Of a stretch of DNA of 32,343 bases, positions 25,915 through 27,559 are shown piece after piece. Position 1 is the first letter of the stretch. Every line of letters begins with the position of its first letter. Under the pieces are notes generated by a model. The model was given only the letters and a program-made list of their open reading frames with translations, searched no databases and was not told the origin of the DNA. This DNA is from Halanaerobiaceae bacterium (GTDB lineage: Bacteria > Bacillota > Halanaerobiia > Halanaerobiales > Halarsenatibacteraceae), in assembly GCA_007130465.1 (NCBI GenBank), contig SLSL01000059.1, forward strand, positions 1 through 32,343, read 5' to 3'. Both the position numbers and the translations under genes were made by a program.

Positions 25915-25983
25915 ATATAAAGGGTTAAAATATTAAGATATAAAATGTTAAAGTATTTAGATGTAAAGGCTTAAAAATACTTA
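25913..25983 (+). repeat. Three imperfect AT-rich tandem repeats (~23 nt)
   Basis: AGATATAAAGGGTTAAAATATTA / AGATATAAAATGTTAAAGTATTT / AGATGTAAAGGCTTAAAAATACTTA. Confidence 0.6.
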
Positions 25984-26038
25984 AATATAACAAAATATAA
26001 AAGAGTTGAATAAATATCACAATAGGAGATGATCACTT

Positions 26039-27379
26039 TTGGGGAAGTTATTTGGAACTGATGGAGTAAGAGGAGTTGCTAATCTGGAATTGACACCTGA
26101 GCTGGCTTTTAAAATTGGTGAGGCTGCTGCAGGGGTATTAATGGATGAAGCCAATGGTAAAAACAGGATTATATTAGGGAGAGATACCAGGGTTTCTGGA
26201 GATATGCTGGCCTCGGCAGTTATTGCCGGTGTAAGTTCTGTAGGGGTAGATATTATCGATCTGGATATTGTTCCTACTCCAGCGGTCTCGTATTTAACTA
26301 AGGAAAATGATGTGATTGGTGGTATAATGATCTCAGCCTCCCATAACCCGATTGAAGATAATGGAATTAAGGTTTTTGGCTGGGATGGCTGCAAGATATC
26401 TGAAAATTTAGAGATAAGGATTGAAGATATGATGGCTATTCCTACTGAGCCAGATGCAAGGCCTACCCATAATAATGTTGGCCAGGTTATTTGTGATAAC
26501 TTGTTGATAGCTGAATATATTGAGAATGTGATTTCATCGGTTAAAAACGATTTATCTGGCCTGAAAGTAGTTCTGGATTGTGGTCAGGGAGCTGGTTATA
26601 AAATTGGACCGGAAATTTTAAGAGAATTAGGAGTAATTGATCTAATAGCGATTAATGATGGAGGTAAAGGAAATTTAATCAATGTTAATTGTGGTTCAAC
26701 AGATACCTCTGGTCTTATTGAGAAAGTAAAGGAGACTGGGGCTGATCTTGGGATTGCTTTAGATGGTGATGCTGATCGGGTTATTTTAGTTGATAATCAG
26801 GGGAATATAATAGATGGTGATAAGATTATGTATCTTTCAGCTCTATCAATGCAGGAGAATGGAAGCTTGAAGAAGAATAAGATTGTGACGACTAAATATA
26901 GTAATTTAGGTCTTGATGAATCATTATCTAAATATGGAATTGAGGTTTTAAAGGTTAAAAATGGAGATAAATATGTTTTAGAAGGTTTGAAAGCCAATAA
27001 ACTTAATTTAGGAGGTGAGAAATCTGGACATATAATCTATTTAGATTATAATACAAGTGGCGACGGAATATTGACAGCTGTTCAGGTCATGGATTATGTC
27101 AGTCAGAAAAACCGGAACCTGGTAGAGTTATTAGAGGAATTCCAGGAATGGCCTCAATTATTGGAGAATGTAAGGGTTAAGAGTAAAGACTGGGAAGATA
27201 ACCAGGCTATAAATGAGGTGATAGCAGAAGCTGATAAAGAAGTTGATCCAGGTAGAATTTTTGTTAGGGCATCAGGAACTGAACCTGTAATTCGTGTTAT
27301 GCTGGAAGGTAAAGAAATTGAATTGCTGGAAAAATGGAGAGATGAATTGGCGGCTGTAATTGGAGAAGAATTAAATTAA
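26039..27379 (+). CDS. glmM: Phosphoglucosamine mutase (TTG start)
   Basis: MGKLFGTDGVRGVANLELTPELAFKIG; active site MISASHNPIEDNGIK. Confidence 0.98.
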   Translation: MGKLFGTDGVRGVANLELTPELAFKIGEAAAGVLMDEANGKNRIILGRDTRVSGDMLASAVIAGVSSVGVDIIDLDIVPTPAVSYLTKENDVIGGIMISASHNPIEDNGIKVFGWDGCKISENLEIRIEDMMAIPTEPDARPTHNNVGQVICDNLLIAEYIENVISSVKNDLSGLKVVLDCGQGAGYKIGPEILRELGVIDLIAINDGGKGNLINVNCGSTDTSGLIEKVKETGADLGIALDGDADRVILVDNQGNIIDGDKIMYLSALSMQENGSLKKNKIVTTKYSNLGLDESLSKYGIEVLKVKNGDKYVLEGLKANKLNLGGEKSGHIIYLDYNTSGDGILTAVQVMDYVSQKNRNLVELLEEFQEWPQLLENVRVKSKDWEDNQAINEVIAEADKEVDPGRIFVRASGTEPVIRVMLEGKEIELLEKWRDELAAVIGEELN

Positions 27380-27526
27380 AGCGCCTGATCCTATTATTAG
27401 GACGACGAGGTTGGGGATTATCGAACTATTCGGCGGATGTCCTCAGGCCAACTTACCTGGCCTTAAGTCTAGCAAGAAAAATCTAGAGGTAACTTTAGAT
27501 ACAAATTACTAGATAGGTAACTTAAA
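27380..27526 (+). ncRNA. glmS ribozyme: glmS ribozyme (GlcN6P-activated self-cleaving riboswitch)
   Basis: Conserved core A|GCGCC...GACGAGG..GGG.UUAUCGA..UUCGGCGG.UG, P1 TCCTA/TAGGA (27389-27393/27398-27402), P3 AGGCCA/TGGCCT (27445-27450/27458-27463), distal stem TTAAGT/ACTTAA with inner ATCTA/TAGAT and GTAA/TTAC; directly upstream of glmS. Confidence 0.96.
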
Positions 27527-27559
27527 AATACTGATTATGAGTGGAGGAAATAGATATAT

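Follow-up and report, generated by a model that had tools for sequence, protein, structure and literature searches.

The closest described relative of the locus studied here is the glmS ribozyme (Rfam RF00234), for example that of the Bacillus subtilis cdaA-cdaR-glmM-glmS operon. According to two reports, RNase J1 degrades the cleaved glmS product in this organism, and mutation of the ribozyme increases glmS mRNA more than 50-fold (PMC11780869; PMC6171935). A second point of reference comes from enterobacteria, for which an RNase E cut within the glmU stop codon UGA that frees glmS has been described (PMC2515195). Here, we describe a glmM-glmS locus in a window of 32,343 nucleotides (the whole stretch of DNA that was analysed; contig SLSL01000059.1 of a Halanaerobiaceae bacterium, assembly GCA_007130465.1), in which the core of the ribozyme begins almost immediately behind the glmM stop codon, and we compare this arrangement with that of related genomes.

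The glmS Ribozyme and Its Position in the Window

A covariance-model search with RF00234 identified a ribozyme directly upstream of glmS (Table 1). The match (E 2.1e-21) scored well above the curated gathering cut-off and spans the full model, positions 1–167. In the printed model alignment, the first G of GCGCC (G27381) is model position 13, and self-cleavage is accordingly predicted between model positions 12 and 13, i.e., between A-1 (A27380) and G1 (G27381); that the RNA is cut at all is expected from its family. A27380 is the sole nucleotide between the stop codon and the cleavage site (d = 1, where d is the number of nucleotides from the glmM stop to the cleavage site), and together with the final 11 nt of glmM it forms the single-stranded leader of the model (positions 1–12). 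The start codon of glmS lies 179 nt past G1. The original prediction had placed the glmM UAA one nucleotide from the ribozyme core, cleavage at A27380|G27381, and the whole in a glmM-glmS operon; the open reading frame and the model alignment bear out all three, and the search supplied the boundaries of the ribozyme.

Table 1. Features of the glmM-glmS locus (positions refer to the window).
Feature	Position	Strand	Evidence
glmM, phosphoglucosamine mutase, TTG start, 446 aa	26039..27379	+	ORF; a homologous ORF directly precedes the ribozyme in 221 genomes
glmM stop codon UAA (DNA TAA)	27377..27379	+	Sequence, ORF
Sigma-70-like match inside glmM, TGGACA-16-TATAAT, 11/12	27025..27052	+	Pattern match; matches near shuffle expectation
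glmS ribozyme RF00234, full-length	27369..27523	+	96 bits vs. gathering score 37; core motifs intact
Predicted self-cleavage site A27380|G27381	27380..27381	+	RF00234 model positions 12|13
Shortened P1 hairpin UCCUA-UUAU-UAGGA	27389..27402	+	Sequence and RF00234 alignment; P1 covaries among contact-type relatives
GACGAGG core	27404..27410	+	Invariant in 13-sequence alignment
glmS Shine-Dalgarno GGAGG	27543..27547	+	Sequence; proximal SD also in relatives
glmS, GlcN6P synthase, 607 aa	27560..29383	+	ORF with MCGIVGY N-terminus

The A-1|G1 dinucleotide is followed by an intact core (A27380 G27381 CGCC), and the four core motifs GCGCC, GACGAGG, ATCGA, and CGGCGG are all present. The same motifs are invariant or nearly so in an alignment of 13 ribozymes that contact a stop codon, with no variation in the active-site strand GACGAGG, whose G27404 corresponds to the catalytic G, known as G40 in the numbering of T. 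tengcongensis. Folding of this alignment yielded 29 consensus pairs, 15 of which show double changes that keep the pair. At about 5 bp, the P1 helix of the window ribozyme is unusually short, and the speed of cleavage could differ on this account. Genome-wide, the window's copy is the single glmS ribozyme. By every sequence feature checked, the element is a member of RF00234. It is an ordinary glmS ribozyme, to all appearances intact, within an operon of glmM and glmS. Its presence is overwhelmingly beyond chance, whereas the 1-nt spacing is not, because spacings vary broadly and this one belongs to the tail of short values. Regarding the region upstream of glmM (25915–26035), it is AT-rich and contains repeated degenerate units (TTAAA-ATA-TTAAGATATAAA-like).

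We consider it likely that a canonical glmS ribozyme acts here between two genes of one operon, with a GlcN6P-triggered cut that lowers GlmS and leaves the glmM frame complete. As in other members of the family, plentiful GlcN6P would lead to cleavage of the mRNA at the predicted site, and the downstream 5′-OH fragment carrying glmS would be degraded, probably by RNase J, so that GlmS falls. The genome contains an RNase J gene, read in part, its match being divided over contigs. The upstream fragment would comprise the complete glmM frame with the stop codon at its extreme 3′ end, and no large effect on glmM would be expected. The spacer between glmM and the ribozyme has shrunk to 1 nt in the window's genus, and competition would be the expected side effect. 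A terminating ribosome should cover roughly ten nucleotides downstream of the stop codon, which here include the GCGCC strand. By masking the 5′ strand of the core, ribosomes terminating on glmM would allow new mRNA to fold and cut only in the intervals between them. Geometry thus leads us to expect a degree of competition between translation of glmM and self-cleavage.

In this reading, glmM and glmS belong to one operon. Should glmS be transcribed largely from the promoter-like site inside glmM, contact between stop codon and ribozyme would be of little consequence. The site is mostly kept in G001, the second species of the genus; however, it shares sequence with codons for the conserved SGHIIYLDY motif, so that its conservation is expected anyway, and 44 promoter-like sites were found where shuffles of the same region gave 34.7 ± 5.8. 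We regard a dominant internal promoter as improbable. If real, the site would uncouple glmS from glmM transcription, and because of it part of the glmS mRNA could be independent of glmM.

Stop-to-Cleavage Spacing in Relatives

The spacing d was determined in the window's class (59 genomes), in 200 genomes sampled evenly across the phylum, in three complete families, and in a Clostridia-type sample. The ribozyme was found in 56 of 61 relatives, with glmM upstream in nearly all of them, and glmM lies directly upstream in 221 of 244 ribozyme loci. Comparison of these 221 genomes revealed that the close spacing highlighted by the original prediction is not general, the median d being 96 nt. Within the window's own family, d amounts to 1, 1, 30, 203, 217, 233, and 266; the two values of 1 belong to the two species of the window's genus, whose GlmM proteins are 86.6% identical, and a further genome of the family (G003) carries a different ORF upstream. 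Of the 111 genomes that the evenly drawn phylum sample contributed, 8 had d ≤ 1, none had 2–13, and 14 had 14–37, the remainder being spread to more than 400. The density in the range from −10 to 1 (0.67 per nt) resembles that at 14–37 nt. Short spacings are thus no denser per nucleotide, and positive selection for contact, which was considered, is not shown. Together with the variation from 1 to 266 inside a single family, this identifies contact between stop codon and ribozyme as a lineage state and no general rule. In total, contact (d ≤ 9) was found in 28 genomes from 12 genera and seven groups, and d ≤ 1 in 17 genomes from eight genera and five families.

Two pattern searches complemented this dataset. 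The pattern TAGCGCC...GACGAGG...ATCGA in named genomes retrieved about 30 recognisable ribozymes in the first 80 loci, none of them with stop contact, and a 15-base pattern across 399 genomes was uninformative owing to chance matches in 393. Individual genomes deviated from the common arrangement. G054 has two glmS ribozymes (L002 and L033), one of them without glmM upstream. A ribozyme match was lacking in G022, G025, and G031 (genus g15) and G027, family f7; these genomes are partly incomplete, and their relatives are nearly all positive. Some ribozymes of genus g88 (L308, L324, L393, and L394) contain unusually long insertions of more than 100 nt in the P1 region and also touch the glmM stop (d = −1 or 1), and G579 of the same genus has no locatable ribozyme core start.

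Longer spacers contain a signal of their own. Spacers of 25 nt or more are present in 178 genomes; in 70 of these, the final 110 nt contain AAGGAGG or GGAGGT, compared to 6.9 ± 2.5 in dinucleotide shuffles, and in the same stretches GGAGG was counted in 79 genomes and its complement CCTCC in one. This consensus Shine-Dalgarno (SD) sequence (AAGGAGGTGA), which lacks a start codon, peaks 20–29 nt before the cleavage site (e.g., in L012, L018, L024, and L045). In families f3, f6, and f7, it keeps an almost constant distance from the cut, with the glmM stop 29–240 nt away. Three roles were considered and rejected: a short translated ORF behind the SD (13 ATG within 4–12 nt downstream in 107 cases, with about 15 expected by a rough count), pairing with the ribozyme (a CCUCC-type partner in just 2 of 24 loci), and use as the true ribosome site of glmS, which in those spacer-bearing loci always has its own proximal SD-like motif. 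A 30S subunit docked at the start-less SD would reach the cleavage site, much as a ribosome terminating on glmM would in the window, or could guard the 3′ end of glmM.

The relatives also bear on a stronger role for translation. Contact may be kept since ribosomes that finish glmM block folding of the ribozyme; translation of glmM would then protect the mRNA, and the switch would act mainly when translation is slow. Spacings of −8 to 5 are kept within g1, g20/g24, and f29, where GlmM identity falls to 86.6%, 56%, and about 60%, respectively, although conservation inside genera can be explained by shared descent alone. In same-family pairs of 75–85% identity, d changed by a median of 6 nt where one member had d ≤ 9, compared to 63 nt where both had d ≥ 14, but short spacers also leave less room for change. 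Three families of the window's class have the start-less consensus SD in the spacer, 20–28 nt before the cut, from where a docked 30S subunit could reach the site. However, contact spacing is not enriched overall, and long spacers work in most relatives. Maintenance of contact by such gating is conceivable, though we find it rather doubtful.

Overlap of the glmM Stop Codon with the Ribozyme Core

In ten genomes (five genera, four families), d is negative, i.e., the glmM stop is split by the cleavage point or lies beyond it. Three of them, G045 (f10), G208 (f36), and G368 (f26), use U-2, A-1, and G1 of the ribozyme as a UAG stop, which cleavage splits into UA|G. The other seven belong to family f29, in which glmM continues beyond the cleavage point for two codons before it stops at the UGA formed by ribozyme U6G7A8; the final codons read AGC GCC UGA (Ser-Ala-stop), with the cut inside AGC. 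The eighth f29 genome, G201, has d = 0 (GUAA|GCGCC). Ribozymes of f29 score 80–101 bits with intact cores, and the overlap is kept while GlmM identity between genera falls to about 61–63%; near-contact in f10 is kept down to 56%. Averaged by genus, 16% of ribozymes contain U-2A-1G1 and 20% contain U6G7A8. After loss of the spacer, the core thus has stop codons at hand in two frames, which offers a simple neutral route to overlap. In the titles, abstracts, and passages of open-licence literature that were covered, no mention was found of a glmS ribozyme contacting or containing an upstream stop, a weak sign of absence.

In the ten overlap genomes, self-cleavage would directly yield a non-stop glmM mRNA, and GlmM might fall. 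The original prediction had proposed a similar outcome for the window: the upstream fragment would be trimmed at its 3′ end into non-stop mRNA, GlmM would decrease along with GlmS, and one ribozyme would govern two consecutive steps. In the form weighed here, trimming would run into the stop codon and tmRNA would clear the product. Besides the overlap genomes and the enterobacterial cut within the glmU stop, this idea is backed by the single nucleotide that shields the stop codon in the window and by a tmRNA gene in the window's genome. However, cleavage at d = +1 neither removes nor splits the stop; the upstream fragment, which would carry a cyclic phosphate at its 3′ end, keeps it intact, and the claim is therefore not supported for the window. 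Spacing is also unconstrained in most relatives, including those of the same family. Furthermore, a decrease in GlmM would push GlcN6P higher and create a self-reinforcing loop. Work on B. subtilis argues that extra GlmM uses up GlcN6P and relieves cleavage (PMC6171935).

Some relatives have a hairpin just 5′ of the cleavage site that would protect glmM. A GC hairpin between stop and cleavage site was observed in f26 (L249, L368, L370, L380, L381, L387, and L388) and f93 (L304 and L321); in f93 and several f26 genera, its 3′ foot lies 2–7 nt before the cut. Self-cleavage at these loci would leave glmM mRNA with a stem-loop at its 3′ end, and such protective-looking junctions disfavour a general loss of glmM. 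For the window, we thus judge a decrease of GlmM through non-stop mRNA to be very doubtful. The idea can be tested more readily in relatives than in the window, because four other lineages have the cleavage point within the stop codon or upstream of it. A wider version, which we think unlikely, applies to Bacillota with UA|G or U6G7A8: a GlcN6P-triggered cut would produce non-stop glmM and switch off GlmS and GlmM together, ribosomes translating glmM would unfold and protect the ribozyme, and the window would represent a neighbouring state.

Discussion

A GlcN6P-triggered cut that lowers GlmS and spares the glmM frame remains our preferred reading of the window; the wider interest lies in what contact could mean elsewhere. 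Should cleavage act on the upstream gene, glmS ribozymes would be switches with two sides instead of 5′-leader switches, and a non-stop mRNA controlled by a metabolite would represent a new mode of regulating genes from the 3′ end. The overlapping cases, UA|G and UGA within the core, pose the question of how a ribosome that has to read through this core and the folding of the RNA can share it. Should contact turn out to be without effect, the ribozyme would tolerate a translating ribosome at its very edge.

Among known systems, the window ribozyme shares sequence, structure, the place upstream of glmS, and an operon with glmM with that of B. subtilis. It differs in its shortened P1 and in its 1-nt spacer, the median in 221 genomes being 96 nt and one Bacillus (L178) having 184 nt. 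As a functional parallel to cleavage at a stop codon, the RNase E cut inside the enterobacterial glmU UGA comes nearest. A cut at the stop of the upstream gene likewise separates an amino-sugar gene from glmS in E. coli and Salmonella (PMC2515195). There, however, the upstream gene is glmU, the cut is made by a protein nuclease, RNase E, together with GlmZ/Hfq instead of a self-cleaving, GlcN6P-sensing RNA, and processing accompanies activation of glmS, not repression. Control by trans-translation of the arfA type, in which an mRNA lacks a stop and its output depends on ribosome rescue (PMC10107115), follows the same logic as the stop-splitting relatives, but involves no metabolite-sensing RNA, and glmM of the window retains its stop codon.
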